IMG/VR virus record: IMGVR_UViG_3300035193_000067
Coordinates: 1 to 64,000 of that record
Length of the DNA stretch: 64,000 bases
DNA from: a virus
Direction: 5' to 3' (one strand)
Shown here: in pieces, positions 4,151 through 24,222 of the stretch
Numbering within the stretch: the stretch's first letter is position 1
Layout of the letters: every line of letters starts with the position of its first letter
Translations under genes and position numbers: made by a program
Notes under the pieces: generated by a model
Databases searched by the model: none
Seen by the model: the letters and a program-made list of their open reading frames with translations, nothing else
Told to the model about the DNA's origin: nothing

Positions 4151-4154
4151 AAGA

Positions 4155-4792: not shown

Positions 4793-4802
4793 TATCTTCT
4801 CC

Positions 4803-9235: not shown

Positions 9236-9360
9236 GGGAGAGTTTTGATAAATGCGAGAACAAGTACCAGGAACTGGGCAAAAAGAAGACTTGTCCAAAC
9301 CTTGGTCAACGGGCTGTGCCTGTGAAATACTACAATCTTGTTGGCTAGAGATTTCATCAT
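9232..9360 (-). CDS. Small membrane protein, 42 residues
   Basis: An ATG at 9360 with AAGGA five to six bases upstream overlaps the preceding stop (ATGATGA). The product starts MMKSLANKIVVFHRHSPLTK and has one hydrophobic helix (WTSLLFAQFLVLVLAFI) near the C-terminus, preceded by basic residues, implying N-in topology. No family recognised; a small holin-like or membrane regulator is conceivable. Confidence 0.6.
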   Translation of the reverse strand: MMKSLANKIVVFHRHSPLTKVWTSLLFAQFLVLVLAFIKTLP

Positions 9361-9557
9361 AATATTCCTTTTTTGCGCAGATCTGCCAAAACCTGTTGAA
9401 CAAGCTCACGAGACTCAAACTTTTCATTGGCTGCTACAAGTATGTCAAGATCCTCCAATCCTGCATCAATCATTTTAAGAATGAACGATTTTACCACAGG
9501 ATAGGATTCTCGGGAAGTCTGGGCAGATCTGGTTGAGGCGGACATGGTTCTTACCAT
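9357..9557 (-). CDS. Small helical protein with an STRSAQ motif, 66 residues
   Basis: Either of two ATGs (9557 or 9545) may start it; neither has a clear SD. Near the N-terminus it has ASTRSAQTS, matching the ASRRSAQ linkers of the next gene upstream (9551-10453) at both protein and DNA level. The rest is one helical domain (MIDAGLEDLDILVAANEKFE). It looks like a detached module of that protein family. Confidence 0.6.
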   Translation of the reverse strand: MVRTMSASTRSAQTSRESYPVVKSFILKMIDAGLEDLDILVAANEKFESRELVQQVLADLRKKGIL

Positions 9558-10453
9558 GCTTCCAGGAAATCCTGGGCAACTTCCTGCCAGTTTACCTCAG
9601 AAACAGCACCTCTCATAAGGTCTGCATAAACACCATCAAGTTCAGGAGCCATCTCATCAAACATAGACTCAATGTACTGTCCCAGAGCATAAGCATCTTC
9701 TGATTCTGCAGCAGCTTCCTGTACCATATCATACAAGCCTTGATCATTACTGATCCACAAAGCTACCGCCCATGTGGAATAATTCGACCAACCCTGGTAC
9801 TCTTGAGCAGATCTGCGGGAGGCAACCAGACCATAAGCTTGAGCGTAATCGCTCGAAGAATACCCGGCTTCTTCCAGAGCTGACAGTACTTCAGGATTAC
9901 CTGAATCAATTGCCAACCGCATTGCCTCCGCGTCATCAACGGTAGGATCTGCCCCTTGAGAAAGCAGAGAAGCCACCTGTGCAGCATCTCCTGAGTCTAC
10001 AGCCTGTTTAAGCTCGTCATCCAAACCCCACTGATCATAACTGCCCTGATCCCAACCTTCCATCTGTGCCAGCTTGGTAGGTGCACCCTGTGCAGATCTG
10101 CGGGAGGCTCTCATACCTTTACTCTCCCAGAAAGGAGCATACGCAAAAGGAACATCCAACCACCTACCGGATCCATCATCTGCATTGAAGGGCTCATAGC
10201 TATCCCCAAACTCTTCAATTATAGCACGTGCTTCAGGACTGTCTTTTACATACAAATCACTCTCATGATTATCTGTCTCAATACCTGCTTCCTGTAAAGC
10301 CTGATACAGAGAAGATCCACCCTCTTCCTGAGCCTTCTTAGCATAAGGAGAATCTTCCCCATACTGAGCATACCCTTCCCCGGCTTCTGTTGCAATGCGC
10401 TGAATAGCATCAGCTCCCAGCGGTTTACGTTTGTTCAATTGTCTGTAATCCAT
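9551..10453 (-). CDS. Modular protein: N-domain, ankyrin-like module, GW-NY-TW module, 300 residues
   Basis: Three modules are separated by the same linker. Residues 1-115 are acidic with a WLDVPFAYAPFWESKG segment. ASRRSAQ (116-122) precedes an ankyrin-like module (AVDSGDAAQVASLLSQGADP and AIDSGNPEVLSALEEAGY). A second ASRRSAQ (211-217) precedes YQGWSNYSTWAVALWISN up to VNWQEVAQDFLEAW. The last module recurs in 23158-24210 and, diverged, in 19154-21550; I associate the GWxNYxTW motif with a phage domain of unknown function (DUF7249, from memory). The linker could be a processing site. Virion or ejected protein is a guess. Confidence 0.75.
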   Translation of the reverse strand: MDYRQLNKRKPLGADAIQRIATEAGEGYAQYGEDSPYAKKAQEEGGSSLYQALQEAGIETDNHESDLYVKDSPEARAIIEEFGDSYEPFNADDGSGRWLDVPFAYAPFWESKGMRASRRSAQGAPTKLAQMEGWDQGSYDQWGLDDELKQAVDSGDAAQVASLLSQGADPTVDDAEAMRLAIDSGNPEVLSALEEAGYSSSDYAQAYGLVASRRSAQEYQGWSNYSTWAVALWISNDQGLYDMVQEAAAESEDAYALGQYIESMFDEMAPELDGVYADLMRGAVSEVNWQEVAQDFLEAW

Positions 10454-10465
10454 TTTTAAAACCTC

Positions 10466-10909
10466 TTAAAATTTTGTTGAGGGCTTGTTGTATACCCTGT
10501 TAAACACATTTACACTACTCTGCAGTGATCTGTCAAGCAAACCATCCAGCAAATCGATAATTTCTTCCTGAGAAAGTTTATTCAGATCTCCGTATTCCTC
10601 TCTCAGCTGCTGTACAAGCTCCGGAGGTGCATACTGAAGAATCTCACTCTCCAGGACATCCACCAGTCCTTCACCGGTCTCCAGATTGATTTCAGCAGAT
10701 ATTTTCAACTTCTCCTCCATCTGCTCCAACCCGTCATAGTAATCTGAGAACTCCTCCAGATGATCTGTTGCAATCTCCAAAGCAGTCTCAACATCATCAG
10801 TATGCTCAAACTCCACCAGAATACCCTTCAACAGCTGCTTCTGATCATACTTTGACAGATCCTTACCATCCGCCTTGCCGCCTGGTATTTTATCCGTCAA
10901 GACAGGCAT
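10466..10909 (-). CDS. DUF5661-like protein, 147 residues
   Basis: The N-terminal half has KIPGGKADGKDLSKYD, QLLKGILVEFEHTDD and EIATDHLEEFSDYYDGLE, the hallmark order of the DUF5661 family, which is found in phages and environmental bacteria and has no known activity. The His residues in EHT and DHL are candidate metal ligands. A second half of about 70 residues is acidic and helical and is not part of the family domain. It overlaps the upstream gene by one base. Confidence 0.75.
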   Translation of the reverse strand: MPVLTDKIPGGKADGKDLSKYDQKQLLKGILVEFEHTDDVETALEIATDHLEEFSDYYDGLEQMEEKLKISAEINLETGEGLVDVLESEILQYAPPELVQQLREEYGDLNKLSQEEIIDLLDGLLDRSLQSSVNVFNRVYNKPSTKF

Positions 10910-11208
10910 TACTGCACTTCCTCCTGTGTCTGTGTATCTATAGTGTACTGATTGAGTTCCTGGTTGGGTACTGCTGTAGTACCCTCAGGAACCTCTTCTC
11001 CGGCTGGAGCAAGGACTACGTTGGGATCAGTAGGTTCATTTTCAACAACCTGCATCTGATTTCCCATCTGATCTGTGACAATCTGCCCAGGCTGCACCAT
11101 GTTTGGATCTGTTACAGTCTGCTGCTGGGCTAAAAAGGTCCTGCATACATCATCTGCAACAGTTCTTTTATAGGTGTATTTTTTGTTTTTTGACGCCGTT
11201 AATTGCAT
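10909..11208 (-). CDS. Low-complexity Gln/Thr/Pro protein, 99 residues
   Basis: Start at ATG 11208 (MQLTASKNKKYTYKRTVADD) because AGGAGATAAA lies directly ahead. A short basic N-terminus precedes a flexible region rich in Gln, Thr, Val and Pro (TVTDPNMVQPGQIVTDQMGN). Such composition suits a disordered scaffold, linker or internal head peptide. No family recognised. Confidence 0.6.
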   Translation of the reverse strand: MQLTASKNKKYTYKRTVADDVCRTFLAQQQTVTDPNMVQPGQIVTDQMGNQMQVVENEPTDPNVVLAPAGEEVPEGTTAVPNQELNQYTIDTQTQEEVQ

Positions 11209-11279
11209 TTTATCTCCTAAAAAAGACAATGTTTTTATACTACCACAAATCAATGCGAAACACTTAATAAATAAGCTGT

Positions 11280-11519
11280 TTAGTCATTTTCTCTGAAATA
11301 TGACTCGAAATCCAGCTGCTCAGTCTTCCCGCAGCCTTGACAGATCTTTGACAGCTCCACTCCAAAGGCTATACATTTCCAGGTAGCCTCTGCCCAGAAG
11401 TGTCCGCCAACGCTGATACAGTACTCCTGCAGCTCTCTCCAGGAGATCTTGTTAAAGTCTGCGGTAGCCTTGTGGATAAGATCACGCCGTGCCTGATCTA
11501 TCTCAAATTTCTTACGCAA
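11280..11519 (-). CDS. Hypothetical zinc-binding protein, 79 residues
   Basis: The frame opens with a TTG at 11519; the SD is poor, so the exact start is uncertain. It contains a helical N-terminus, then HFWAEATWKCIAFG and KICQGCGKTEQLD, where the Cys residues could form a zinc site. It sits between dUTPase and a low-complexity protein. No family recognised. Confidence 0.5.
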   Translation of the reverse strand: MRKKFEIDQARRDLIHKATADFNKISWRELQEYCISVGGHFWAEATWKCIAFGVELSKICQGCGKTEQLDFESYFREND

Positions 11520-11570
11520 AACCTTTCGGATCCCCTCATGAGACAGTTAAAAACCCTTCCTGAAACAGGA

Positions 11571-12071
11571 TTACTCTTCAGAGACTTCTTCAGTTTCTGC
11601 ATCAGTGCTGCCAAAACCTCCAGTACGTACTTCCGAGACTTCATCATCCTCCACCAAACCATACTGAAGAAAGATTCCCTGCATAAATGCTTTACCGCAT
11701 TCCAACTCCAGGAACTTGCTTTCATTCGTATCGTTGGTAACCTTTGCCCAGATATGCCCCTCATTGTCTGCGTAGAAATAATCAGAATCTATAACACCAA
11801 CTGTGTTATCAAGTTGAATACGGTACTTAAAGCCAAGACTTGAACGAGGAAAAAGCAGCAATACCCATCCCGGATCCATCTCAACCCGTATACCTGTAGG
11901 AATCTTTACAGACTGATTAGGCCCTACAGAGATGGAATAGGGCATGAAGAAGTCATAACCAGCACTTCCGGCAGTAGCTCTTTTTGGCAGTTTGAGGTCT
12001 CTGTACGATCCATGGAACTTTTCTAAATCCTCCAACCACCGCTCTTCACTAACCTTATGAAACTTTAACAT
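11571..12071 (-). CDS. dut: dUTP diphosphatase (trimeric dUTPase)
   Basis: Hydrolyses dUTP to dUMP, keeping uracil out of DNA and feeding thymidylate synthesis. Family motifs are visible in order: AGYDF (37-41), PRSSLG (75-80), NTVGVIDSDY (89-98, with catalytic Asp) and RTGGFGSTD (149-157, the phosphate-capping motif). The 166-residue length is typical. It follows nrdG by 11 bases, forming a nucleotide-metabolism cassette with NrdH, NrdD and NrdG; ThyX at 53368 would use its product. Confidence 0.95.
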   Translation of the reverse strand: MLKFHKVSEERWLEDLEKFHGSYRDLKLPKRATAGSAGYDFFMPYSISVGPNQSVKIPTGIRVEMDPGWVLLLFPRSSLGFKYRIQLDNTVGVIDSDYFYADNEGHIWAKVTNDTNESKFLELECGKAFMQGIFLQYGLVEDDEVSEVRTGGFGSTDAETEEVSEE

Positions 12072-12082
12072 TTTTAACCTTT

Positions 12083-12565
12083 CTATGAAACTTTTACAGC
12101 ATACTGATTTTTTGATGCAAGACGCACACCCAGAACCTCATCAAACACTGATTCAGTATCTGGAATATATCTCCCGAATTTAATAACCACGTTTGGAAAA
12201 TCTGTCAAGAGCTTTAGCATCGCATCTACCTCAGATTCTGTATACCCTGTATAAATTACAAAATCATCAGAAACTCCCTGAGATCTGAAGTAACTCAACA
12301 GATCCAGAACTTCCCAGAACTGATCAAACGGCTCCAGCCCACCAACTACAACAGCCTGTGTCAACGGGTTGGACAGGTACCTCTCCAGAACCTCTTCCTT
12401 TGGGATCTTTACAGTCTTCAAACGTGCCTGAAGAGAGTTCTGACAGATCTCGACAGGGAATCCTCCTTCTTTGCAGCACTTCCAGGTACAACCAATTGAG
12501 ACAAGCAGCATGGATGTCTTTTTGTAATCCTGGAAGACTTCATCAACTATCTGCTTAACTCTCAT
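12083..12565 (-). CDS. nrdG: Anaerobic ribonucleotide reductase activase (radical SAM), variant Cys motif
   Basis: A 160-residue protein that should use SAM and a 4Fe-4S cluster to install the glycyl radical on NrdD, encoded just upstream with a four-base overlap. The cluster region is GCTWKCCKEGGFPVEICQN: Cys26 and Cys30 match the first two ligands of CxxxCxxC, but position 33 is Glu, with Cys31 and Cys41 nearby as alternative third ligands. VVVGGLEPFDQFWEVLDLL corresponds to the GGEP region and VIYTGYTESEV to a following strand. Identity is supported by context. Confidence 0.82.
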   Translation of the reverse strand: MRVKQIVDEVFQDYKKTSMLLVSIGCTWKCCKEGGFPVEICQNSLQARLKTVKIPKEEVLERYLSNPLTQAVVVGGLEPFDQFWEVLDLLSYFRSQGVSDDFVIYTGYTESEVDAMLKLLTDFPNVVIKFGRYIPDTESVFDEVLGVRLASKNQYAVKVS

Positions 12566-14481
12566 TTAAAGAAGTCCTCTTTTATGGAGTACCACTGTCT
12601 CTTGTCAAATTCAATCTTGCGCTCTTTCGAGTACGATGATTGAGGTACAAGAAAGCCTACAACCCGTGAGTAAGTGTCTACCTTTGGCTTACCGCATTCC
12701 GGACAGATCTCCCCGAAGAATCCGTGAGATGCTTCGCAGACTGAAATCCTGGTATTGTATGCATGATAGATAACACCTGAAGCAGCAACATGATTGAGCA
12801 TCTCCCAGGCCTGATCAGTATCTGCAAAAGGTCCGTCAATATTAATGTGAGAGATCTGCCCGCCTCCACACTTCCTGTCAAGAATTGATCCTAAACGGAT
12901 CTTTTCAGCAATTGTACATTTCTCCATCAGAGGTATCCACTGGTTTGAATAGATGAAATGTTGATTGTGTTGAGGATATAACCAGTTGTCTTTGCTGCAC
13001 AGAACCACGTTAGCCCTTTCAGCAGGAACCGCTTCAACATTCAGTGAATAATCAAAAGTGTAGGAGTCCTTTACCTGGTTGATTGTGTCAAGAATCCTTG
13101 AAGCAAACTCAAGACCTTTTTCAGAATAAGACTTGTTGCCAAACAGATCTGTGTCAATGTACCCAAAATGATCAACCGCTTCAAACATTGCAGTAATACC
13201 GATAGTGTTGTACTGCTTACTCAACTCTATCAACCCGTGAGTATAATTTGGAAGAAGACCCTTTTCAATATTTCTTCTGATGATATTTCGCACAACATCC
13301 AAAACCGTAATGCAGATGTCCAAACGATCTTTCAGTATACTGATGAAGGCTTCCTCAGATCTGGATTCCAGTGCAATTCTCCTGAGGTTGATTGTATTGA
13401 CCTTTACGCTTCCAATTGACAGAGAAGTACCGCCGATAGAGTTAATGAATGCATCCAGTTTCGTGAGATCTGTAGTAAGTCTGCAGCAGGAACTTAAGCT
13501 GGTGACAGATTCTCCTACATAGAAATTGGAATCGTACCAAAGAGTATTGTGATCACTGCACCATCTCGCAAACTCTTCATCCACAAACTTACCATCCTGA
13601 TAGAGCAATGAAAAAGTCAGTACAGGGAACGTAAACATGTGTTTTCTGCGGACTTCTGCAACAACCTCCATAAAAGCTTTCTGATGCTCAATGATACCTT
13701 CTATGTGGTCTATTACGTACTCACCGTTTGGAAACTTCCTGCCTCCAAACAGCTCTGTCAGATACTCCCTGTCCATAATTGTGATATTCGTAAAGGCGCA
13801 TTCAGTTACTCTCAAATATTCCTGATTCAGATCGTAAAGAGTCTTCTGGAAACACTGTCTGCGATAGTATTCAGGATCTTTCAGATAGAATCCTTCAGAC
13901 ACGTCCTTGTGCCAGAAATAGTAAGAGTATAGCAGGTAACTGGGAAGACCCACAGCTCCGGCAGTTCTGTTTGCAGTCCAGCTGACAAACTCCAGCACAT
14001 GATCGCTGAAAGTTGTTAGGTGTTGAGGAGGATCTGTCTTCATATTGTTCATAAAGAACAGTCCTTTCTCAACAACCTGATCAAGATCATACGCGTAACA
14101 GTATGAAATCATTGAAGAATTTGAGCTATCGTGAATATATAAAGACCCGTTCCATTCCTCTTCCAGCCACTGCTCAGCCTTCTTCAAACTGTAAAGTTTT
14201 GATATTTCGTAAAAAATCTTGTTGAAAGAAAGCAGTTTTGTGTGAGGCTTCACCATATCTGAAAGAAGGGTTCTAATGTCGTGCGTACTGCTGTTTGCAT
14301 TTGCATCAATGGTAGTGTCTGCCACTGTATCAGCATCAATAAAATTATCTATGAAATCTGTAAAGTTTAAGTTCTCTGTATGGAAGCCATTCATTCTCTC
14401 GAAGTCTTCCCCGTATTTCTCCTTCATTCTGTTGAGAGCTGTCACAAAAGGCTTGTATAATTTTAAAGACTTAATGTCCAT
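12562..14481 (-). CDS. nrdD: Anaerobic (class III) ribonucleoside-triphosphate reductase
   Basis: Reduces ribonucleotides to deoxyribonucleotides by glycyl-radical chemistry. At the C-terminus a zinc motif CPEC (about 593-596) precedes SRVVGFLVP, whose Gly609 is the expected radical site. TGITAMFEAVDHFG-type (here IGITAMFEAVDHFGY) and VNLPR-like core segments such as SLSSCCRLTTDL fit the barrel. At 639 residues it is near T4 NrdD size, and there is no N-terminal ATP-cone, so allosteric activity control is probably absent. It is translated with NrdH (TAATG overlap). It implies an at least partly anaerobic host. Confidence 0.95.
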   Translation of the reverse strand: MDIKSLKLYKPFVTALNRMKEKYGEDFERMNGFHTENLNFTDFIDNFIDADTVADTTIDANANSSTHDIRTLLSDMVKPHTKLLSFNKIFYEISKLYSLKKAEQWLEEEWNGSLYIHDSSNSSMISYCYAYDLDQVVEKGLFFMNNMKTDPPQHLTTFSDHVLEFVSWTANRTAGAVGLPSYLLYSYYFWHKDVSEGFYLKDPEYYRRQCFQKTLYDLNQEYLRVTECAFTNITIMDREYLTELFGGRKFPNGEYVIDHIEGIIEHQKAFMEVVAEVRRKHMFTFPVLTFSLLYQDGKFVDEEFARWCSDHNTLWYDSNFYVGESVTSLSSCCRLTTDLTKLDAFINSIGGTSLSIGSVKVNTINLRRIALESRSEEAFISILKDRLDICITVLDVVRNIIRRNIEKGLLPNYTHGLIELSKQYNTIGITAMFEAVDHFGYIDTDLFGNKSYSEKGLEFASRILDTINQVKDSYTFDYSLNVEAVPAERANVVLCSKDNWLYPQHNQHFIYSNQWIPLMEKCTIAEKIRLGSILDRKCGGGQISHINIDGPFADTDQAWEMLNHVAASGVIYHAYNTRISVCEASHGFFGEICPECGKPKVDTYSRVVGFLVPQSSYSKERKIEFDKRQWYSIKEDFFK

Positions 14482-14693
14482 TATTTACCCCCGTTGGCAG
14501 CAACCCAGGCAACCGCATCTCTGAATAGTAATCTCTCTCCTTTTACGTTCAGCACCGGTACTGATTTTACTCCTATCGATATTAAATAATCCTTGTCGGT
14601 AACTTCTGTGTAGGACACTTCAGCAGCATCCAGCTTCTCCTGCAGAACTTTGCATTTTGGACATCCTGTATGGTACAGCACTATTTCAGACAT
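14481..14693 (-). CDS. Glutaredoxin/NrdH-like thiol reductant
   Basis: A 70-residue thioredoxin-fold protein with the redox pair in LYHTGCPKCKVLQ near the N-terminus and the cis-Pro segment VKSVPVLNVKGERLLF. It begins at the ATG 14693, behind AAGG, rather than at a TTG eight codons earlier. Being first in the NrdH-NrdD-NrdG run, it probably reduces the reductase's active-site cysteines. A 14-bp inverted repeat lies in its leader. Confidence 0.85.
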   Translation of the reverse strand: MSEIVLYHTGCPKCKVLQEKLDAAEVSYTEVTDKDYLISIGVKSVPVLNVKGERLLFRDAVAWVAANGGK

Positions 14694-14730
14694 TAAAAAA
14701 ACCTTTCTATTGAGCAAACGCTACCACAGA

Positions 14731-14769
14731 CTTAAACAGACCTGCCGCATACTGACAGATCTGTTTAAG
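14731..14769 (-). repeat. 14-bp inverted repeat in the nrdH-nrdD-nrdG leader
   Basis: Arms CTTAAACAGACCTG (14731-14744) and CAGATCTGTTTAAG (14756-14769) are inverted copies with one mismatch that would be a G-U pair in the transcript, and flank an 11-base loop. No T-run follows, so it does not look like a terminator. It lies about 38 bases before the nrdH start and could be a protein operator or RNA regulatory hairpin. Confidence 0.75.
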
Positions 14770-14785
14770 CAAAATTAACAGTATC

Positions 14786-14813
14786 TATTTAAATATTATT
14801 TTGACTTTGTCAA
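14786..14813 (-). promoter_or_regulatory. Possible promoter for the ribonucleotide reductase cassette
   Basis: TTGACA (14808-14813) overlaps the end of the preceding gene, and TAAATA (14786-14791) follows after 16 bases in an A/T-rich stretch. The inverted repeat at 14731-14769 would then lie just downstream of the start point, a common place for an operator. The -10 matches only in part. Confidence 0.4.
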
Positions 14814-15998
14814 GCTCTTCCCAGGAACCTTGGTAAGAGTCATCTTCCCTTTATCATCCTTCAGGTTCACAAGATAAACAAGATTAGCCTTGTCATACAG
14901 ATCATCAACAACCCCTTTGGTACCCTTAGGGAATTTCTTTGAAGTACCCCAGCCTCTGACAATAACTTCCTTGGTTAAAGACACTTTGTCACCATTGTTC
15001 CAGGACTTTCCTTCAGGATACTCGACCTCTGCAGGGTCAAGACCTTCGGTATACTCACCCAGTTCCTCCACACGCTCCTCCACAGGCACGTAATCATCCT
15101 TCTCATCCTCTTTGGTAGTTTTTGAAGCTGTCAGTACGTCTGCCATAGGAACGAGCTCAGAACCCAAACTGATGCCTGACATCATCTCTGCAACATCAAC
15201 AGCCATTCCAGGAAACGCTTCCATCCCTTCCGTAGGAATTTTGGCATCCACAACAGCCTGAAGAGATTCAAGAGAAAGTGCTTTCATTTGTCCTTTAATC
15301 TCAGACAGGGAGTCCCAGACATCTCCGGCAGACTCTTCATGAACATTGATAGCTTCACAGATGTCAAGATACTCAGAAATGAGACGAACCGCTTCAGGTT
15401 CCTGGGCAGATCCTTCAAACTTGTCCAAATATGCTGCAATGTCTTCAGCTTCATAAATATTGGAAGACTTGCTGAAAGCCTGGATAACAATTATCTGAGG
15501 AGCTACCGGAGAGTTTTTCATTCTTTCGAGATTGAGTTTTTTCAGCTTGTACTCCATCTCATCCTTCTGCTTATACAGATCCTTCAGCTCAGATCCTGAA
15601 AAACCTTCATATTCTGTATCAAGATAGCTGTTTAGAAGGTTGTATGCCTGTTCTTCGTAAGGGGTACCTTTAAGACTCAGGAACCACTCCTCTCCGAAAC
15701 AATCCAAATATGATTTCTTTTTCATCTTTTTCCTTTTAGCCTGAGCACCCATTCCAAGAGTACCCCGCTCAGCTTCGTACAGGTCTATGGCAGCCTGTGC
15801 CACATCTTCAAGTATCTGCTCTTCTGTTTCGTCAGGATCTGCAGACGAGTTTGGAATTTCTCTTTTAAATACAGGAGCCCCACCTTCCTCCAGAATAACT
15901 GAATAGTACTCAGGGTTCTCTTCCGAAGGTTTAACGGTTACGTTGTACCCTTTCAGAAGCAGTTGGTAGTCTGTATCGTATGTGTATGAGCCTGCCAT
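14796..15998 (-). CDS. Hypothetical modular protein with SH3/KOW-like C-terminus, 400 residues
   Basis: An acidic protein with an N-terminal beta segment (MAGSYTYDTDYQLLLKGYNV), a basic patch GMGAQAKRKKMKKKSYLD near residue 85, a helical middle, and a C-terminal domain of about 65 residues (WNNGDKVSLTKEVIVRGWGT) that looks SH3/KOW-like. It contains LTASKTT and MGAQAK, near-matches to the AQ linkers of neighbours. The N-terminal part recalls phage modules annotated only as hypothetical. It overlaps the upstream gene by one base. Confidence 0.6.
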   Translation of the reverse strand: MAGSYTYDTDYQLLLKGYNVTVKPSEENPEYYSVILEEGGAPVFKREIPNSSADPDETEEQILEDVAQAAIDLYEAERGTLGMGAQAKRKKMKKKSYLDCFGEEWFLSLKGTPYEEQAYNLLNSYLDTEYEGFSGSELKDLYKQKDEMEYKLKKLNLERMKNSPVAPQIIVIQAFSKSSNIYEAEDIAAYLDKFEGSAQEPEAVRLISEYLDICEAINVHEESAGDVWDSLSEIKGQMKALSLESLQAVVDAKIPTEGMEAFPGMAVDVAEMMSGISLGSELVPMADVLTASKTTKEDEKDDYVPVEERVEELGEYTEGLDPAEVEYPEGKSWNNGDKVSLTKEVIVRGWGTSKKFPKGTKGVVDDLYDKANLVYLVNLKDDKGKMTLTKVPGKSLTKSK

Positions 15999-17494
15999 TA
16001 CTTGTACATTTTCTTGAACGTGCTGGGGAGAGGGTCTACCGCATCAACTTCAACACGATATTCCATCCCTTTTGATTTGACGATGAGATAATCATTGGCA
16101 TCATCAATCTCCACAATTACTCCACGAGTCCGGTTTTTAGGCTCACCAAAACGAACACCATCCTCAAGCTCTATAGGAGTCTTTGTATCTCGGTAGAAAC
16201 GGGAAGGTTTGACAGGTTCTTCAGAAACCTCCATTTCAATTTCCTTCTCCATCTGCTGAGCTCTTTTAAACCTGTCCAGCTCCTGAAGAGAAGATGCCTT
16301 ACGTGTTCTCAGGTTCTGTCCATAGGGATTCAGGCAGAAACCTTCATTAATCAAGTGAGGCATCCAGGCATCCTGAGAAGCCGTATTAACAACATTCAGG
16401 ACGTAATTTCTCAGGATATGGATCCAGGGACGAGGGAAAGTATCTGTACCATCCTTTTCAGCCTTCTCAAGCAGCTCTTTTACAGCTGCATAAGCAGAAG
16501 GAGCAGTTCTGGCTGCTCGCTTACCTCTTACAGGATACTGACGCTCATACAAATCTTCGTAATCAGTGGTATCCAGCTGATCCTTGGTAAGAACCACCTG
16601 AGTCTCCATTACAAGAGGCTCCTGACCCATTTCAACATCCATCAGTTCTGCAACAACCTCTGAAGGAGTGGAAGTCAGCTTTATCTCAGTGGATTCATCC
16701 GATGTGGTTACGATTACTTCATCCGTATCGAGAACATCAACATCACCTAGAGTAAAGCCATAGCCCTGAGCAAAGTCCTGGAGATTTTCCTTGATTGCAT
16801 CAATGTTCTCAGGAATGTTAATGGGATTCTCATCATCAGCACTCCAAAACTCTGCAAGCTTGACATTTTCAGGATCCTTGCTTTGATTCTTACGGCTCAT
16901 GTAATTTTTGAAATTGCTGGTGTTAGGTCTCCAGCCTGTATCATTGCGCACTTCAGTAGCAAGAGCCCGTTCATCAGATCTTAGAGGAAGCTCATATCCT
17001 TCTCGTACAGAAGGAAGTACATAGGATGTTGCATTCTCCAGCATACCTTCCACGGCATGAGCAGAGATTACTGAAACTGTGTTATCCACTTCCATAACGG
17101 AAGGAGGTGTCACTTCCCCATCAATAACTGTAACAGGAACTGTAGCAACCCTTTTAACGTTTGTAGCAGTGCGGAAGGTTACTGAAAAGTCCAGAGTGCT
17201 TGAATCAATCTGTCCCTGAGAAGCATACCTGGTGTCTCTGTTGTTCAGGAATCGTACTTCAGGCATTGTAGGCAGATCAAAGGCTGCAAAAGCATCCTGC
17301 ACTGCATAAGTGGCATCTGCCACAACACTGCGAAGATCTCTGGATTTCTTTTTACCGTAGGACTTACCCATCTCTGAAAAGATATCAGTCAGCTCATCGG
17401 CTTCTTCCCAGTTTTCCTCTTCCCAGGAGGAATACCCTGCCAGAAGAGGATGAGAAGCTACTCGCTTATCTTTAATTAGTTTATCAAATTTCAT
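15998..17494 (-). CDS. Hypothetical protein, 498 residues, SH3-like C-terminus
   Basis: No family recognised. The N-terminal third is mixed (MKFDKLIKDKRVASHPLLAG, AYAVQDAFAAFDLP-like helix here TYAVQDAFAAFDLP), the middle is rich in Thr, Val and Glu, residues about 330-400 are helical and aromatic (PWIHILRNYVLNVVNTASQD), and the C-terminus (GVIVEIDDANDYLIVKSKGM) resembles an SH3-type barrel. FKRAQQMEK just before the C-terminal domain matches the linker motif seen between modules in neighbouring genes. Likely part of the same functional block. Confidence 0.6.
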   Translation of the reverse strand: MKFDKLIKDKRVASHPLLAGYSSWEEENWEEADELTDIFSEMGKSYGKKKSRDLRSVVADATYAVQDAFAAFDLPTMPEVRFLNNRDTRYASQGQIDSSTLDFSVTFRTATNVKRVATVPVTVIDGEVTPPSVMEVDNTVSVISAHAVEGMLENATSYVLPSVREGYELPLRSDERALATEVRNDTGWRPNTSNFKNYMSRKNQSKDPENVKLAEFWSADDENPINIPENIDAIKENLQDFAQGYGFTLGDVDVLDTDEVIVTTSDESTEIKLTSTPSEVVAELMDVEMGQEPLVMETQVVLTKDQLDTTDYEDLYERQYPVRGKRAARTAPSAYAAVKELLEKAEKDGTDTFPRPWIHILRNYVLNVVNTASQDAWMPHLINEGFCLNPYGQNLRTRKASSLQELDRFKRAQQMEKEIEMEVSEEPVKPSRFYRDTKTPIELEDGVRFGEPKNRTRGVIVEIDDANDYLIVKSKGMEYRVEVDAVDPLPSTFKKMYK

Positions 17495-17499
17495 AATAT

Positions 17500-17847
17500 T
17501 TACCTATCCCGTCGAATAGACCGCCCAACACTCTTAGGAGGAGCTTGAGCAGGTTTAGTGTTGCCGTTAAATACGGATGCTACCAGTACTCCCTTACGAT
17601 CTTCAATCAATAACGGATCTTTGGATAGAGCATCAATCGCTACAATTTTGCTGGAGTCCACTACAGCAGATTTTACTTTGTTCTGATGATCGGTAAACAA
17701 CCAGAAAGAAGGAAACCCTGTTTTTACGAAATCAAAAGCTGCCACATCATCCTTCTCAGGAAGTAAAGCTTTAAAGACATGACCACCTTCACAGAAAACT
17801 CGATATGTGTACAGAGGAACATTGATGAACTGTTTAACAGTACTCAT
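17500..17847 (-). CDS. Hypothetical protein, 115 residues
   Basis: A compact protein with aromatic beta segments (VPLYTYRVFCEGGHVFKALL, FPSFWLFTDHQNKVKSAV) and a basic, proline-rich C-terminal tail (PAQAPPKSVGRSIRRDR). The tail could contact nucleic acid or be disordered. It overlaps the upstream DUF192-like gene by four bases. No family recognised. Confidence 0.55.
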   Translation of the reverse strand: MSTVKQFINVPLYTYRVFCEGGHVFKALLPEKDDVAAFDFVKTGFPSFWLFTDHQNKVKSAVVDSSKIVAIDALSKDPLLIEDRKGVLVASVFNGNTKPAQAPPKSVGRSIRRDR

Positions 17848-18470
17848 AGCAGCTCATAATCCACTTCTGAAGTAATGGAAGGACAGTAGCCCTTGCCTGC
17901 GGCAGTTTGGAAGTACTCTTCTTCCTCTACTGGTTTCTGTTTTGCAAAATCTGCAATATCCTTGGCAGTCAATCCAATAAAAGCAATTGTATCTCCTACC
18001 TGTACATCATTGACCTGACAAAAACCTCCCTGAACCTCCACCACTGCATCACAGGATGAACAGGACCATTTATCAGAACTGCCCGGCTTCGTATCCGCCT
18101 GAATCTTAACAACCTCATCATTCCTGATGAATAGAATGTCAAGCGGATAAGAAACGCTTCCTTGATGAAATGTTACATCAGCGCTGGGGGCATACGGAAA
18201 ATACATCCCTCTGTTTGCAGGAAGCTCCGGCGTATTCTGAAGACCTGCCATTTTTTCCGAGTGAGTATAAGCCACTTCACAAGCAATTTTAACATCCTTG
18301 TCAACCCACCAGCATACCATACGCTCAATAGGCTTCATTCTAGCTTGTTTATTTCTCATACGTGATGTCAATTTAATCTCATCTTCTGTATACGCATAAA
18401 AGGACAGGGAGTTGTCTGAGCCCTTCCACGCATAAATTTCATTACCATCTCCCTGAAGACGACACAGCAT
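17844..18470 (-). CDS. DUF192-domain protein, 208 residues
   Basis: Residues about 65-165 follow the DUF192 pattern: VAYTHSEKMAGLQNTPELP, GMYFPYAP, a short strand with VSYPLDILFIRNDEVVKI, and a C-terminal GFCQVNDVQVGDTIAFIG. DUF192 proteins in bacteria and archaea are mostly exported and of unknown function. This copy has no signal peptide, an extra CSSC pair inside the domain, and an N-terminal extension of about 60 residues. A phage-borne version among structural-like genes is unusual. Confidence 0.75.
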   Translation of the reverse strand: MLCRLQGDGNEIYAWKGSDNSLSFYAYTEDEIKLTSRMRNKQARMKPIERMVCWWVDKDVKIACEVAYTHSEKMAGLQNTPELPANRGMYFPYAPSADVTFHQGSVSYPLDILFIRNDEVVKIQADTKPGSSDKWSCSSCDAVVEVQGGFCQVNDVQVGDTIAFIGLTAKDIADFAKQKPVEEEEYFQTAAGKGYCPSITSEVDYELL

Positions 18471-19139
18471 CTACCTTTTGCCGTATTTCTTCTTGGATTT
18501 TTTAGGAGACTTTGTAACAGCTTTCTTTTTCGGTGTTACTTTCTTTTCAGTAGTATCTTCCAGATCTGCAAAAATCTCAGACTCATCAATAACGTCCTCG
18601 GAGCTTACTGCATCAGGGTGTTCAACAGACTCTTCTTCAATAATGGCAGGAGCAGCCTCCTCCAGAGCAGTCTTGATTCCTGAAATAGCATCCAGGAGAT
18701 CTGCATCAGCTTCTTCAGAATCCTTGGTGGATACTTCAACAGTAACTTCTACAGGTGCTTCCACTGGCTCTACAGATGCTTCCACGGGTACAACTTCCTC
18801 TTTAACCTCTTCAGGTACATCTACAGGAACTGAAGTGCCAGGTGCGCCGATCTTGAACCTTTCAGTGTTAGCTTCATTGACAACTATCAGTTTGTTGGTC
18901 TTCAGAGCTGCCTGAACCTCAGGACTTAACTGAACGTCCATAGCAGTGTAGCCAGTCTCTTTGACAAGATCAACAGCATGTACAGCAGGAACAGTTACGC
19001 TGGCAGTCTTCCCTTTGAGAGATCTGCGTCTGTGGTGAGATGACTGTTCAAGTATTGGCAAGATTTTAGTCATCTCTTTAACAATAAGCGAAAGATTCTT
19101 TTTACCTGGATTAAATACTACAAATGCTTCCTTTTTCAT
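18471..19139 (-). CDS. Protein with acidic disordered middle and basic tail, 222 residues
   Basis: The N-terminal 95 residues look folded (MKKEAFVVFNPGKKNLSLIV, LKTNKLIVVNEAN). Residues about 105-195 are Glu/Val/Pro-rich and likely disordered (VPEEVKEEVVPVEASVEPVE). The last 25 residues are strongly basic (KKKAVTKSPKKSKKKYGKR), typical of DNA-binding tails. A DNA-condensing or scaffold role is possible but unproven. Confidence 0.6.
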   Translation of the reverse strand: MKKEAFVVFNPGKKNLSLIVKEMTKILPILEQSSHHRRRSLKGKTASVTVPAVHAVDLVKETGYTAMDVQLSPEVQAALKTNKLIVVNEANTERFKIGAPGTSVPVDVPEEVKEEVVPVEASVEPVEAPVEVTVEVSTKDSEEADADLLDAISGIKTALEEAAPAIIEEESVEHPDAVSSEDVIDESEIFADLEDTTEKKVTPKKKAVTKSPKKSKKKYGKR

Positions 19140-19153
19140 AAAATACCTCCTGT

Positions 19154-21550
19154 TTATGATTTAAAAAGATCAGCCAAATTATCTTTTCCCAGAAACTTTT
19201 TCAGCTCTTCAGGAGGCATACCAACCTCAGATAGAACTCGCTGAGAAAGCATCAACGCTTTGCTCATAGCAATCTCTGTCTCATTGGATGCGGGAACATC
19301 CGCGCTTTCCACGTCTTTATATATCTTAAGAACCTGTCCTTCCTGCGAATTAGGATCTACTAGAGGATCTGCAGCAGGTGCCGCAGGAGCTGCCGGAGCA
19401 GCAGGAGCTTCCGCAGGTGCTTCAGCAGGAGCTTCCGCAGGAGCTGCCGGAGCAACTTCTTCCTGTGCAGACTTCAACAGTTTCTGAAAAGCTTTACGCT
19501 TCTTCTGAGCTTCAGCAGCCTCACGCAGAACTCTGGCAGCTGTTGGAGCAGGCTGTGCAGGAGCTGCCGGAGCCGCCGGGGCAGCAGGCGCTTGAGGTGC
19601 CGCAGGTGCTGCGGGAGCCTTTGGAGCAGGTGTTACAGGTGCGGGTTTAGCATTTCCTGCAGGAGCTGTACCAGGTTTCTGCAACTGAATCTGTATAATT
19701 TTCTGTTTCTGATCAGGCTGCATCCCCATAATGTCTTCCGCAGTCCACCCAAGAGTCTTCAAACCTTCATCACCAGCACCTGCCGCAGGGGTTGGTGCAG
19801 GAGCTGCCGGAGCTGCAGGAGCCTTTGGAGCAGGTGTCTTCTTGTCACCACCAGCAGGGGCTGCAGGAGCTGCAGGAGCAGGTGTCTGAGGTGCAGCAGG
19901 AGCTGCCTGAGCTTTAATAGGATTCTTGGGCAGTTTCTGCTGACCATGAGTTTCAGGAGTTGTTTGAATCTCCGGTTCATAAACCTTGGCAGAATCTCCT
20001 TCACCTTTATTACCACGATCCTCATCTTTGTTCGAATCATCTTTATCAGGAGCTGAAACATCTACTCCCATGTCATCCGTCAGATCTTCACCGTACCACC
20101 CAAAATAACCTGCCCAATAATCCTGGGCAAACTCATCAGCAGCTGTTTTAGTGGCTGTTATGCCATAAGTCTGAGCAACTTCACTCCAGTTTACAGAATC
20201 CAAAGAATTTTCCGCAAGGTCTGCGTAAAAACCTTCCAATTCAGGAGCACCTTCACTCACAGCAGCAACTACCGCATTCTGTATACTCAACTCAATACTC
20301 TGAGACCCATCAGATTCAACAGCACTCTGGACACGCTGTCTTAGATCATCATCATGCATAACCCATGCAGCTACTATTTTAGTAGAATCATTAGACAAAC
20401 TATCATATACCTGCGCTGTTTTAGCCTGTACTTCACCCATCTCCTCAGACGTAGCATCTCCAGGCATTCTTGGGGCAAGTTTTGACCAATCATAGTCATC
20501 TTCCGTACCCATCGATCTCACCAGGTGATACAGCTCTTCTGCAGATTCTGCTTCAAGATCCCGCATATACTGACCGGAATCTCCCCAATTCTCTTTGATC
20601 TTTACTGAAGTTTTACCCTGTTGCTTGTTGTAGGTGTCCCAGGCAAGTGCATAAGGATTGTCAACATCAGGATCCTTTTTCAGTTTCTTAACCAGTTCTT
20701 CCATTCCAGGAGGTGCTACAGATGCCTTGTCACAAACTGTATCACTTTTGGAATCCATCATCTCTGCTACACGATCCAGCATCCATGATTCAGGATCTGT
20801 GATATTGACCAGATATTTGTTATCCGGTACAGCAGCCACTCTCTGGTCATAAGACATACCTCTGCGAGGAGCCGCAAAAGTGTCTACAATTAAGGAAGAA
20901 CGTTTGGCAGTTAAAGGAGACTCATCTTCTTCGTCTTCTTCGTCTTCTTCATAAGGATCTGTATCTTCCTCATCCTCCACACCTTCAAAATCTTCCACCA
21001 GCTCATACATGTCCTCAAGGTGCTCCTCCATCTCTTCAATGAAGTCTTCCTCATACTCGTCATCCATGTCTTCCTGAGCAAACCTGCTGTAAGCCTTCAT
21101 CTCTCGGGAATCACTGTCTCTCCCCAGATCTGTATCAGTAAACCCACCACGCTCCACTGAAGTCTGTGGATTCTTATTGACTGCAGGACTCTTGAAGACA
21201 ATACTGCCGGTATCTGCTCCAGTTCCTTTTTCAACAGAAACCTGATCAGCTTTGGGACCCTTGTCAACCTTGGGAGACTTGAAAGCCTCGTCAGTGCTTG
21301 TGTCAGGCCCCAGAACGCCTTTAGGAGGTGCTGGGTAGGTAACAGGCTTGGGAGTCTTCTCCGGGATTCCAGCAGCCTTGCAGAAGTCTTTTACAGAACT
21401 CTCGAAATGGAAAAATGAAGATTTCCTGGAGGCTCCGGAAGGATCGGTCAAAACAACCTGGTCATCAGCATTGACCGAAATTGACCATTTGTTGTGAGAG
21501 ACTTTGTTGCCTTTAAGCAAATCACTTTTTACTGTATTATATGTTTTCAT
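19154..21550 (-). CDS. Large modular Pro/Ala-rich protein, 798 residues
   Basis: Domain order by eye: 1-60 folded start; 70-150 Lys/Pro-rich linker; SRFAQ at 155-159; 160-212 very acidic run; 215-360 mixed, including NPYALAWDTYNKQQGK; KTAQ (377-380) followed by a diverged GW-NY-TW module ending VNWSEVAQ (453-460); a YWAGYFGWYGEDLTDDM element (478-494); then several hundred residues of proline-alanine repeats (PAAPQTPAPAAPAAPAGG) with a second basic AQKKRKAFQKLLKSAQ segment; and an 85-residue helical C-terminus. It shares modules with 9551-10453 and 23158-24210. The composition suggests a long flexible protein, perhaps packaged with DNA. Confidence 0.7.
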   Translation of the reverse strand: MKTYNTVKSDLLKGNKVSHNKWSISVNADDQVVLTDPSGASRKSSFFHFESSVKDFCKAAGIPEKTPKPVTYPAPPKGVLGPDTSTDEAFKSPKVDKGPKADQVSVEKGTGADTGSIVFKSPAVNKNPQTSVERGGFTDTDLGRDSDSREMKAYSRFAQEDMDDEYEEDFIEEMEEHLEDMYELVEDFEGVEDEEDTDPYEEDEEDEEDESPLTAKRSSLIVDTFAAPRRGMSYDQRVAAVPDNKYLVNITDPESWMLDRVAEMMDSKSDTVCDKASVAPPGMEELVKKLKKDPDVDNPYALAWDTYNKQQGKTSVKIKENWGDSGQYMRDLEAESAEELYHLVRSMGTEDDYDWSKLAPRMPGDATSEEMGEVQAKTAQVYDSLSNDSTKIVAAWVMHDDDLRQRVQSAVESDGSQSIELSIQNAVVAAVSEGAPELEGFYADLAENSLDSVNWSEVAQTYGITATKTAADEFAQDYWAGYFGWYGEDLTDDMGVDVSAPDKDDSNKDEDRGNKGEGDSAKVYEPEIQTTPETHGQQKLPKNPIKAQAAPAAPQTPAPAAPAAPAGGDKKTPAPKAPAAPAAPAPTPAAGAGDEGLKTLGWTAEDIMGMQPDQKQKIIQIQLQKPGTAPAGNAKPAPVTPAPKAPAAPAAPQAPAAPAAPAAPAQPAPTAARVLREAAEAQKKRKAFQKLLKSAQEEVAPAAPAEAPAEAPAEAPAAPAAPAAPAADPLVDPNSQEGQVLKIYKDVESADVPASNETEIAMSKALMLSQRVLSEVGMPPEELKKFLGKDNLADLFKS
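19371..19940 (-). repeat. Degenerate Pro/Ala-coding repeat
   Basis: Within the 798-residue protein, short GC-richer units coding for PAAP, APAA and AEAP recur many times with variation (for example GGAGCTGCCGGAGC on the plus strand). The array is split by a basic coding segment at about 19460-19530. Such repeats probably change length by slippage. Confidence 0.65.
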
Positions 21551-21561
21551 TACTGTATCCT

Positions 21562-22806
21562 TTAAAGATATTCTGCTCGTTCTATGTAATCTTCTACACC
21601 AAACTCTTTGATAGCCTCTACTGCCTGCATAATAACTTCCAAAGGCTGATCTTCTATTGAATCATACTCTCCAAAACCACTTGCATCGTAGATAGACCCA
21701 TCAACTTCATCAATCTTACTCTGAACCTCTTCCAAGCTCATGTCCGATAGGTCTAACCAGAAGCTGGAAACATCTCCTTCAGGGGTTTTATGTGCTATCT
21801 CTATACTAGGAGGACCTTCTTCAGCTCCATCCTCATCATCCCAGTCCGCATCCCATCCTTGAGCTTTCTTGTCAGACGATCCAGTTTTACCATAAACTTC
21901 TTCAAAACCAGCCATTGAGTAACCGTACTCTTCAAACAAAGACACAAACTTATCAAAAGGATAGGGATAGCTACCCTGAGAAGCGTCTTGCATCTTAAAC
22001 ATCGTCATAAAAGCTTCTGCACCATTTGCTGAAGGATCTGCACCCCTATCCAGATAACGTTTTGCAGCGCCAAGATCCATATCCTTAACCGCATCAACAA
22101 GAGCCCAGTCAAGATCATCCTGAGTAGACTCTTCTTCAGGAGAATCCCATTCTGCGTACTGCTCAGGATCCCAACCTTCCATCTGTGCACGCTTGTTTAC
22201 CATCTCAATAATAAAGTCACGAGCTTTCTTGTTTTGAGGATTGTTCACCGACAGACCATTAACACGCATCATGTAGTCAAAATCATCCTGATCATGAATG
22301 GAAGCAGCAATTCCCATCAGTTTGGTCATATCCAGCTTCACGTACCCATTGGCTGCAGAATTCTCCAGGCAGTCAACTGCTGCAGATTTGGGGAATCTTG
22401 CACTATAATGATCACGAATCTCTGCAAAGGTTGCATAATCCACAGAACCTGTCCGATTCTTCTCCCACAGTTTCTTCACATGAGCATACAGAGCTTTCAG
22501 CCCCACATCCCGCTTATCCGCTGTCATAGCCTGTTTCACAGCATTATGCAGATCAAAGGTGGATACTACCGGAAGATCTCCATCAATCTCAGAAGCCTCC
22601 TCCTCAACCCGCTCAGCCAGCTTCTCCCGCAACATGGACAGTTTGTCCATTGTGTTGTCAGGCTCATAATAAGATCTCATACGAGCCTCATCACGTTCTT
22701 CAGCAGCTTTGATGTCAGAAGCATAATGCTGAGACAATTTCCCAAAATCCAAAAGGTCGAAAGACTCTCCTGAATATTCCTTTAGTTTACTTAAAACAGA
22801 TTTCAT
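21562..22806 (-). CDS. Modular protein with ankyrin-like module, 414 residues
   Basis: Residues 1-200 are mainly helical and charged (EKLAERVEEEASEIDGDLPV). NKRAQ (204-208) precedes MEGWDPEQYAEW and an ankyrin-like module (AVKDMDLGAAKRYLDRGADP, YGYSMAGFEEVYGKTG) that parallels residues 131-210 of the product of 9551-10453. DKKAQ (312-316) then precedes an acidic C-terminal domain (GWDADWDDEDGAEEGPPS). The same [RK]xAQ linker flanks the module on both sides, as in its paralogue. Function unknown. Confidence 0.68.
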   Translation of the reverse strand: MKSVLSKLKEYSGESFDLLDFGKLSQHYASDIKAAEERDEARMRSYYEPDNTMDKLSMLREKLAERVEEEASEIDGDLPVVSTFDLHNAVKQAMTADKRDVGLKALYAHVKKLWEKNRTGSVDYATFAEIRDHYSARFPKSAAVDCLENSAANGYVKLDMTKLMGIAASIHDQDDFDYMMRVNGLSVNNPQNKKARDFIIEMVNKRAQMEGWDPEQYAEWDSPEEESTQDDLDWALVDAVKDMDLGAAKRYLDRGADPSANGAEAFMTMFKMQDASQGSYPYPFDKFVSLFEEYGYSMAGFEEVYGKTGSSDKKAQGWDADWDDEDGAEEGPPSIEIAHKTPEGDVSSFWLDLSDMSLEEVQSKIDEVDGSIYDASGFGEYDSIEDQPLEVIMQAVEAIKEFGVEDYIERAEYL

Positions 22807-22840
22807 TTATTATCTCCGTAAAATTAAAAAATCCTGTACA

Positions 22841-22849
22841 ATTCTAGCA
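22841..22849 (-). promoter_or_regulatory. Possible extended -10 promoter
   Basis: In the 60-base gap before the gene ending at 21562, the minus strand reads TGCTAGAAT, an extended -10 element (TGn plus TAGAAT), about 35 bases before the ATG at 22806. There is no good -35. It could start transcription of 22806 and the genes after it. Confidence 0.35.
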
Positions 22850-22866
22850 CAATCACTGACGAAAAA

Positions 22867-23112
22867 CTAAGAAGCCTTCAACAAATCAACAAGACTGGAT
22901 TGCTGTCCACAGGAACTGCACACAACTTGAAGAGGTGCAGTCCCTGGAACAATACTGACTGATTTCTGACAGCACCTTGAAAGCAACTCACCACAATCCT
23001 CTGTCTCGCAGGGATCATTGTTTTGAGATCTTTTCATGAGATCTGTCAAAACATGGTCAAGCTGTTCAAGTTCTTCCGGGAAATCAGTCATCTCTTTAGC
23101 AGACCTTATCAA
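22867..23112 (-). CDS. Small Cys-rich (zinc-ribbon) protein, 81 residues
   Basis: Cys residues occur as CETEDCGELLSRCC and VVCSSCGQQSS, enough for a zinc ribbon in the C-terminal half. The start could be the TTG at 23112 or the ATG at 23091; neither has a clean SD. If the TTG is used, the start overlaps the small gene at 23096-23155. No family recognised. Confidence 0.55.
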   Translation of the reverse strand: MIRSAKEMTDFPEELEQLDHVLTDLMKRSQNNDPCETEDCGELLSRCCQKSVSIVPGTAPLQVVCSSCGQQSSLVDLLKAS

Positions 23113-23155
23113 GCTTAATCAGGTTGAACAGATCTTTTTCATTAAAAGTTTTCAT
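23096..23155 (-). CDS. Possible 19-residue peptide or leader
   Basis: An ATG at 23155 sits six bases after a GGAG encoded at the end of the upstream gene and opens a 19-codon frame (MKTFNEKDLFNLIKLDKVC). Its end overlaps the TTG start of 22867-23112. It may be a true microprotein or a coupling leader; length prevents homology judgement. Confidence 0.4.
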   Translation of the reverse strand: MKTFNEKDLFNLIKLDKVC

Positions 23156-23157
23156 TG

Positions 23158-24210
23158 TTACTCCGTGAGGAAATCCTGGGCAACTTCCTGCCAATTTACC
23201 GCAGAGATAGACTCTTCATTGATAGCATCAGAGAAGGCTTCCAATACCCCGAAGTTGTCTTCTGACAAAGACTTTATATACTCAGCAAGACTCTGCACAT
23301 CTCCTTCAGCTGCAACACCCTGTACCTGCTTGTAAATCTCATACTCATTGTTGATCCACAAAGCTACTGCCCATGTAGCATAATTTGTCCAGCCCTGATA
23401 TTCCTGAGTTTCCCAATCCTCTTGAGCTTTTTTAGACTGTGCTTTCTTACGGTCCTTAACATCCTTGGTCATATCTGCCCCGTAACCAGTATCTGAATAA
23501 TAAGCCGACCAGTACTCTGCAGCAGCTTCATCTACACCCTGCTTAACCATCCACAGCTTCACCAGATCTGCCTTAACTCTCTTCTTGACTTCCTTAACCA
23601 GAGACTCCCCAAAAGGCCCATAATAAGCCTTGTAGTACTCTGCAGCAGCCTGATCAATAGCAATCTTCGGAATAGAGCTGGACAGGACCTGTCTTACTTT
23701 TTTGACAAGTGCTTTAGGTGCTGAAGAGGTCTTACCTTCTTTAACTGTATCAACAATCTCCTTCAAAACAGCTGTCCCAACCTTTTCCCAGTCTTCAACC
23801 AGATCTGCCGCCATTACAAAAGGAATGTTCAGTTCTTTGGAAGCCAAACGAGCTTTCATACCAAACTCAACGCTTTCCTTCACAGAAGCTACTTTATCCG
23901 CGCCAAAAGCCTTGCTCAGCTTTGCCCAGGACATTACCTTCGGAGCAGTCTCTCCGGCATCCTGCAGCTCTTTAGCAACTTTTGAATAATGTTTGGAAGC
24001 ATTGTGAGGCAATCGAGAGAACTGCCGCAGATCGGTCATGGAAGCTCCCCACATGCCAAGACTTGCCGCAGCCTTTGCCTGATACAGCTCCAGATCGTCA
24101 AGATCCTCTCGCTCAGCCTTGGTACGATTAACGATGACGTCTCCATCACGTGTGGCATTCGACTGCCAGAGATGATGAGACTGTTTAGTTGTTTTACGCC
24201 TTTTAACCAT
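23158..24210 (-). CDS. Modular protein: two YY-AYY modules and a GW-NY-TW module, 350 residues
   Basis: Residues 1-180 are basic and helical. AAAEYYKAYYGPFGESLVKE (188-207) and AAAEYWSAYYSDTGYGADMT (229-248) are two copies of one module, also seen once in 19154-21550. Twin linkers KKAQSKKAQ (255-263) lead to YQGWTNYATWAVALWINN and end VNWQEVAQDFL, closely matching the C-terminus of 9551-10453. The repeat of the same linker and modules across three separate genes argues for module shuffling. Function unknown. Confidence 0.72.
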   Translation of the reverse strand: MVKRRKTTKQSHHLWQSNATRDGDVIVNRTKAEREDLDDLELYQAKAAASLGMWGASMTDLRQFSRLPHNASKHYSKVAKELQDAGETAPKVMSWAKLSKAFGADKVASVKESVEFGMKARLASKELNIPFVMAADLVEDWEKVGTAVLKEIVDTVKEGKTSSAPKALVKKVRQVLSSSIPKIAIDQAAAEYYKAYYGPFGESLVKEVKKRVKADLVKLWMVKQGVDEAAAEYWSAYYSDTGYGADMTKDVKDRKKAQSKKAQEDWETQEYQGWTNYATWAVALWINNEYEIYKQVQGVAAEGDVQSLAEYIKSLSEDNFGVLEAFSDAINEESISAVNWQEVAQDFLTE

Positions 24211-24222
24211 TTTTTTACTCCA

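Follow-up and report, generated by a model that had tools for sequence, protein, structure and literature searches.

The prohead proteases of T4, phiKZ and SPN3US cut their substrates after glutamate (PMC5694885, PMC10052503), and the capsid-targeting sequence of the T4 internal proteins permits proteolytic processing, according to Mullaney and Black (1996) as cited in PMC10052503. Polyvalent proteins, multidomain phage polypeptides that have been proposed to be packaged and injected, are in some cases processed by peptidases built into them (Iyer et al. 2017, PMC5512222). Here, we describe a block of modular proteins at 9.3-24.2 kb of a 64,000-base stretch of DNA (the window), which comprises bases 1-64000 of the 163,407-base virus record IMGVR_UViG_3300035193_000067 (G000). 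The modules of these proteins are joined by linkers that carry the motif [KR]xAQ, and we consider it probable that the block encodes capsid-targeted internal proteins or polyproteins, whose modules would be cut apart at [KR]xA/Q (the slash marks the predicted scissile bond) by the prohead protease of the phage itself. In most large phages the internal proteins are, to our knowledge, largely uncharacterised.

By gene content, G000 is a myophage, and its head and tail genes listed in Table 1 all lie on the minus strand. Among named records, Virus Rctr197k comes closest (57% identity of the capsid protein); PaBG, Lu11 and phage G are further away. The relatives used for comparison are uncultured IMG/VR contigs, among them G001 (3300035698_004085), G004 (3300037461_001731), G005 (3300018080_000001) and G014 (3300017963_000003). 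A tblastn search with the product of 23158-24210 against annotated phages gave no match.

Results and Discussion

The [KR]xAQ motif is enriched in the block

We found 14 copies of [KR]xAQ in the 4,835 residues of the block (2.9 per 1000) compared to 10 in the 46,437 residues of the remainder of G000 (0.22 per 1000), a background density that is only approximate because open reading frames (ORFs) were called mechanically and a few antisense ORFs stand in place of true genes. When some 2,000-5,000 gapped XxYZ patterns were scanned without bias, [KR]xAQ came out on top in G000 after the PxAP/AxPA pattern of a low-complexity tail, and the same scan, run independently on G001, again placed it best besides a Pro/Ala repeat. 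The blocks of G005, G010, G011, G012 and G014 are enriched as well, that of G018 marginally. The motifs named in the first-pass annotation are all present in the translations of the respective genes; that list was correct as far as it went, but it missed four, namely KKAQ and KLAQ in 9551-10453, KSAQ in 19154-21550 and KPAQ in 17500-17847 (Table 1). Outside the block, a small protein at 27732-27980 contains KRAQ at residues 13-16 and may be an additional tagged protein.

The sites might simply belong to ordinary flexible linkers, if Lys, Arg, Ala, Gln and Ser make up the usual composition of disordered linkers in this genome, and the sites indeed fall into low-confidence segments of structural models. 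However, composition-preserving shuffles of the block proteins yielded a mean of 1.9 copies rather than 14 (maximum 8 in 2,000 trials), A and Q are each about 5-fold enriched given the other motif residues, and the enrichment was replicated in independent genomes. We therefore regard this explanation as very improbable.

Sites lie at module joints and modules are reused

Orthologues of five block proteins from G000, G001, G004 and G005 were aligned to relate the motifs to the edges of insertions and deletions (indels). The median distance of 25 motifs to an indel edge was 9 residues, compared to 38 residues for random positions (P = 0.0004). The first-pass statement that the motif stands exactly at module boundaries is thus borne out for most sites but was too strict for five of them, which lie 89-183 residues from any indel edge: KKAQ 313 of 21562-22806, KSAQ 693 of 19154-21550, KRAQ 410 of 15998-17494 and two in G001. 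Of these, KRAQ 410 is still located in an interdomain linker.

In G004 and G005, the orthologues of 21562-22806 and 23158-24210 terminate at the point at which their window counterparts enter the linker. G001 has three copies of another module, each following RKKAQ or SKKAQ, in place of the DUF7249 module of 23158-24210. Linkers that carry add-on modules thus keep the motif, and otherwise the protein stops there; the loss of the motif at boundaries in homologues, named in the first-pass annotation as a refuting outcome, was not what we observed. The same module follows the same tag in non-orthologous proteins and in different genomes, as we observed for the DUF7249, HESDLY, ankyrin-like and YGTEDGF modules. 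In the window, DUF7249 modules stand behind RSAQ, KKAQ and KTAQ within larger proteins; HESDLY is also found behind KKAQ in G001 126341-126814 and G005 22174-24531; and the ankyrin-like module of 9551-10453 recurs behind KRAQ in 21562-22806. This agrees with the earlier proposal that modules are shuffled while the linker is retained. In the AlphaFold model of 9551-10453 (predicted template modelling score 0.33), residues ~48-103, 143-200 and 221-300 are folded, and all four tags lie in the linkers separating these modules, with predicted local distance difference test (pLDDT) values below 50. Pfam recognised only DUF7249, DUF5661, ankyrin-like, KTSC and, weakly, ParB_N/PTS_2-RNA.

Such linkers could also be recombination scars, that is, short homologous tracts conserved by guiding module exchange or by module copying, with no function at the protein level. 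The modules are plainly shuffled with the tag moving along, and G001 84725-86095 contains three tandem copies. Against this, P3 and P1 are fixed across diverged genomes while P2 and the flanks vary, and the tripeptide also occurs at the ends of the scaffold and protease proteins, which are not shuffled (see below). The explanation is improbable in our judgement, though somewhat less so than that of ordinary linkers.

A prohead protease and its predicted processing sites

The first-pass annotation had proposed a search of the rest of the genome for a prohead protease, and one was found at 93731-94657, between the portal and capsid genes. Its PHROGs match (Table 1) and its predicted fold support a prohead serine protease of the HK97/COG3740-like type with predicted activity. 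In Foldseek comparisons with BFVD, the fold matched proteins of PaBG (E 8.5e-19) and phage G (gp19, E 1e-15), as well as proteins named prohead protease (E 1e-8 to 1e-5). Although PHROGs and fold comparison identify the protease, the Peptidase_S78 hidden Markov model gave no match in the genome. With hhalign, there was no match to T4 gp21, and only the Ser motif aligned with HK97 gp4, the S186 region pairing with MSVG at a weak E of 0.13. As expected for catalytic His and Ser residues, H110, H114, H130 and S186-M-G are invariant across 16 protease homologues; a scan with the protease alignment returned 37 loci. The model shows a folded core (residues 41-258) and disordered ends, which hold K22-S-A and K266-A-A. 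Membership of the herpesvirus-type proteases is not claimed, because fold and sequence searches of the PDB gave no match.

We found that the first three residues of the tag recur where processing of structural proteins would be expected. At the scaffold N-terminus, [KR]-x-A stands in exact register before P-x-G-F in all 15 close relatives, with P2 and P1' free. Our counts on the alignments gave [KR]xA in register at the C-terminal scaffold site before GNF in 10 of 13 sequences and [KR]-x-[ASG] at the protease N-terminus in 16 of 16. Near the N-terminus of the capsid protein, where the first-pass annotation had suggested looking for the same motif, the close variant [KR]xA is in register in 9 of 13 N-extensions, again by our count, and is thus less strict than the scaffold and protease sites. 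KAA[SQ] was also considered as an exact conserved site at the protease C-terminus; this candidate was weakened, as relatives differ there.

Eight relatives encode fused protease-scaffold proteins, in which the full [KR]xAQ occurs 9 times in 1,080 boundary residues compared to 10 times in 6,692 residues elsewhere (Fisher P = 0.0005), the boundary windows (the first 60 residues and the 75 that follow the protease domain) having been picked after a first look at some of these sequences. These clusters would be the places where the maturation protease is expected to free itself. Together, these patterns suggest that the first three tag residues are likely a general cutting signal.

A leader family in related phages

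In G001, G005 and G014, the N-termini of 14 otherwise unrelated small proteins share a leader, GI[SP]D[SEA]GL[KR]R[IV]A (for example MKLQGIPDSGLRRIAQ), and the pattern was found nowhere else in the 168,000 residues of these three genomes. AQ or GQ often follows directly or within ~10 residues. In two relatives, MERGIADEGLKRVAKQVKAQ, consisting of leader and KAQ, is joined directly to a DUF7249-like module, and a G005 protein has a leader-like N-terminus with KMAQ ahead of a KTSC domain (PF13619), while its homologues in G000 and G001 are leaderless. A degenerate form of the pattern retrieved 23 stretches from 2.9 million viral contigs; where a start codon directly preceded the stretch, the contig mostly belonged to this family, and the remainder appeared chance-like. 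One leader protein of G014 gave weak ParB_N and Tpt1/KptA-type matches. In the leader proteins L130, L119 and L135, motifs such as YHATPFRLVDRILREG and YHVTYYRNLDGISEEGL resemble by eye the starts of ADP-ribosyltransferase folds, as in T4 Alt, with weak Pfam support.

The leader family bears on an alternative role of the tag, that of a peptide for capsid targeting or cargo docking, which would bind the scaffold or core, be repeated for each module and stay uncut, leaving the proteins at full length. The leader would direct small proteins that are otherwise unrelated, in many cases with the same AQ at its end, and the basic stretch ahead of the site could bind acidic regions of the scaffold. 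Encapsulin-like cargo peptides act in this manner. Targeting, however, needs no internal repeats between modules, and cutting is expected at the ends of the scaffold and the boundaries of the protease, at which this tripeptide is invariant. We consider an uncut docking peptide unlikely, albeit the least unlikely of the alternatives.

Gene neighbourhood

The block directly precedes the terminase, portal, protease and capsid genes in Rctr197k, and homologues of the block likewise lie ahead of the terminase and head genes in G021 and G025, which ties it to head assembly. In the window genome, the block is far from the head genes. We also noted a long ORF between terminase and portal in Rctr197k (L009:46139-49999), which by eye contains ADP-ribosyltransferase-like and phosphoribosyltransferase-like stretches and resembles polyvalent proteins.

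Proposed mechanism

In our proposal, the block proteins are internal proteins of the head in which small modules are strung into chains. The chains would enter the prohead, in relatives by means of the N-terminal leader. The prohead serine protease would act at [KR]-x-A on its own chain, on the scaffold and probably on the capsid protein, and the same enzyme would cut the chains at [KR]-x-A/Q in their disordered linkers, so that each module would end up packaged as a protein of its own and would probably be injected. We favour cleavage after Ala, since at the structural sites Ala is kept in the absence of Gln and Gly-Gln is found in some leaders; cleavage after Gln is the less likely alternative. 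The first-pass suggestion that the block encodes polyproteins or propeptides processed during virion assembly gains support from the protease, the [KR]xA at structural sites and the clustering in fused proteins, from which we infer cleavage.

Alternatively, a host protease might cut the sites after injection. The sequence does not tell when cutting would take place, and Gln at P1' sets the cargo apart from the structural sites. Yet the [KR]xA core is common to cargo, scaffold and protease ends, which points to one phage enzyme, and of all explanations considered, a host protease appears the least credible.

Several observations weigh against cleavage by the phage protease as proposed. Gln marks the cargo sites but is missing from the structural ones, and in this respect the two signals differ. 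The capsid site is imperfectly conserved, the C-terminal site of the protease is variable, and the boundary windows of the fused proteins were not chosen blind. Moreover, [KR]xAQ also occurs in the portal and DNA polymerase, within ordered domains; these sites probably remain uncut, and the tetrapeptide by itself is therefore insufficient as a signal. G004 has homologous block proteins but few such linkers, and the strict leader pattern is absent from the window genome, where the N-terminus of 9551-10453 has only the weak form GADAIQRIA. Finally, the fold of the protease matched no solved protease structure in the PDB.

A broader reading is that the uncultured large myophages of this clade share a two-part code, in which a targeting leader and the cutting tag [KR]xA/Q would serve to pack arbitrary small protein modules into the head and to separate them there, either in single genes (leader-tag-module) or in polyproteins (tag-module-tag-module), with interchange between the two formats. 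We rate its chances as about even. If true, sequence alone could reveal which proteins are injected throughout the clade, and the protease specificity would be new; no description of a [KR]xA(Q) prohead protease specificity was found in the text of the open-access literature, the only text searched. A tag that predicts both cut sites and packaged cargo would list candidate injected proteins across the clade, among which DUFs (for example DUF7249) would be numerous, and would provide a simple logic for modular head polyproteins, in which modules are shuffled and the tag is retained.

Features of the locus

Table 1 Features of the block in the window, with predicted cleavage sites, and head and tail genes of G000.
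Feature	Position	Strand	Remarks
Small protein: N-terminal ASTRSAQ tag and module	9357-9557	-	Module homologous to C-terminus of G001 127227-127793
Predicted site RSAQ (residues 10-13)	9519-9530	-	
Three-module protein, four [KR]xAQ sites	9551-10453	-	Weak leader-like N-terminus
Predicted site KKAQ (39-42)	10328-10339	-	In pLDDT<50 segment 1-47
HESDLY module (43-118)	10100-10327	-	Folded 48-103
Predicted site RSAQ (119-122)	10088-10099	-	In pLDDT<50 segment 104-142
Predicted site KLAQ (127-130)	10064-10075	-	In pLDDT<50 segment 104-142
Ankyrin-like module 'MEGW' (131-213)	9815-10063	-	
Predicted site RSAQ (214-217)	9803-9814	-	In pLDDT<50 segment 201-220
DUF7249 module (218-300)	9554-9802	-	Pfam PF23907 E 6e-13
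DUF5661 protein, block member without motif	10466-10909	-	PF18905 E 5e-11
Conserved two-domain protein	15998-17494	-	Interdomain linker bears site in G000, G001, G005
Predicted site KRAQ (410-413)	16256-16267	-	
KPAQ close to C-terminus of 17500-17847	17545-17556	-	Uncertain site
Large modular protein, Pro/Ala-rich tail	19154-21550	-	
Predicted site RFAQ (156-159)	21074-21085	-	
Predicted site KTAQ (377-380)	20411-20422	-	
Divergent DUF7249-like module	20150-20410	-	G001 orthologue without it
KSAQ (693-696)	19463-19474	-	Away from any indel edge
Conserved N-terminal core (22195-22806), ankyrin-like module (21871-22182) and C-terminal module	21562-22806	-	
Predicted site KRAQ (205-208)	22183-22194	-	G004 and G005 orthologues stop here
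Predicted site KKAQ (313-316)	21859-21870	-	
Conserved core (23449-24210), linker and DUF7249 module (23161-23421)	23158-24210	-	
Predicted double site KKAQ-S-KKAQ (255-263)	23422-23448	-	KKAQ 23437-23448 and 23422-23433
Terminase	G000 106215-108383	-	
Portal	G000 96163-97962	-	
Head maturation protease	G000 93731-94657	-	phrog_18299 E 8e-28
Scaffold-like protein	G000 92007-93734	-	
Capsid protein, HK97-type	G000 90013-91179	-	phrog_2522 E 1.5e-56
Sheath	G000 81119-83596	-	

Additional observations were made outside the block. KRT[AG]QE is kept within the portal of several relatives (portal genes of G000, G001, G005 and G014), apparently in a conserved domain, and may be a site or a coincidence. 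Intein-like (HINT) insertions were noted at L025:2458-7329 and G001 98606-101476: the portal gene of G001 apparently contains three, its ribonucleotide reductase apparently one, and the L036 reductase likewise. Paralogues that begin with VYVLRTCNEDLTSYNGFQWPESG and continue with short Gly/Ala/Thr-rich repeats are found at 3-419 and 34955-35599 of the window and at G000 108391, 120045, 132554, 147147 and 153044. A single-strand-binding-like protein at 33340-34674 of the window has a tail with ~8 copies of TAPPVAQ.

Comparison with known systems

In the relatives G001, G005 and G014, unrelated small proteins have, like the T4 internal proteins and Alt, which are cut by gp21, a short conserved N-terminal leader that is predicted to be removed by the prohead protease; the strict form of this leader is absent from the window genome. 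The linkage to head genes, also as in T4, is seen in relatives. The leader sequence is unrelated to that of T4, however, and the predicted sites are [KR]xA/Q instead of (L/I)xE. Furthermore, T4 internal proteins are single units, whereas multi-module chains with several internal sites occur here as well.

As in SPN3US, phiKZ and 201phi2-1, many head proteins appear to have propeptides, the protease would cleave itself, and several motifs can occur in one protein, in our case as predicted from sequence. In contrast to the AxE and SxE sites of those phages, the motif described here contains no Glu, and the capsid and protease belong to the lineage of PaBG, phage G and Rctr197k. The protease resembles the HK97/COG3740/XkdF prohead serine proteases in its BFVD fold, its conserved His and Ser-x-Gly and the gene order portal-protease-scaffold-capsid, but differs from them in the lack of a Pfam or solved-structure match and in its predicted [KR]xA specificity.

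With polyvalent proteins, the block proteins have in common that disparate, shuffled modules are combined in one polypeptide near head genes. Polyvalent proteins contain large enzyme domains, some have built-in peptidases and some are packaged whole. Here, by contrast, small and mostly uncharacterised modules are joined by a tag that matches the phage protease's own sites, and of the enzymatic and anti-defence domains typical of polyvalent proteins we found only the weak Tpt1/KptA-type and ParB_N matches in one leader protein. Overall, the block system resembles a mixture of T4-type internal proteins and polyvalent proteins, with an unrelated leader and cut site and with small modules.

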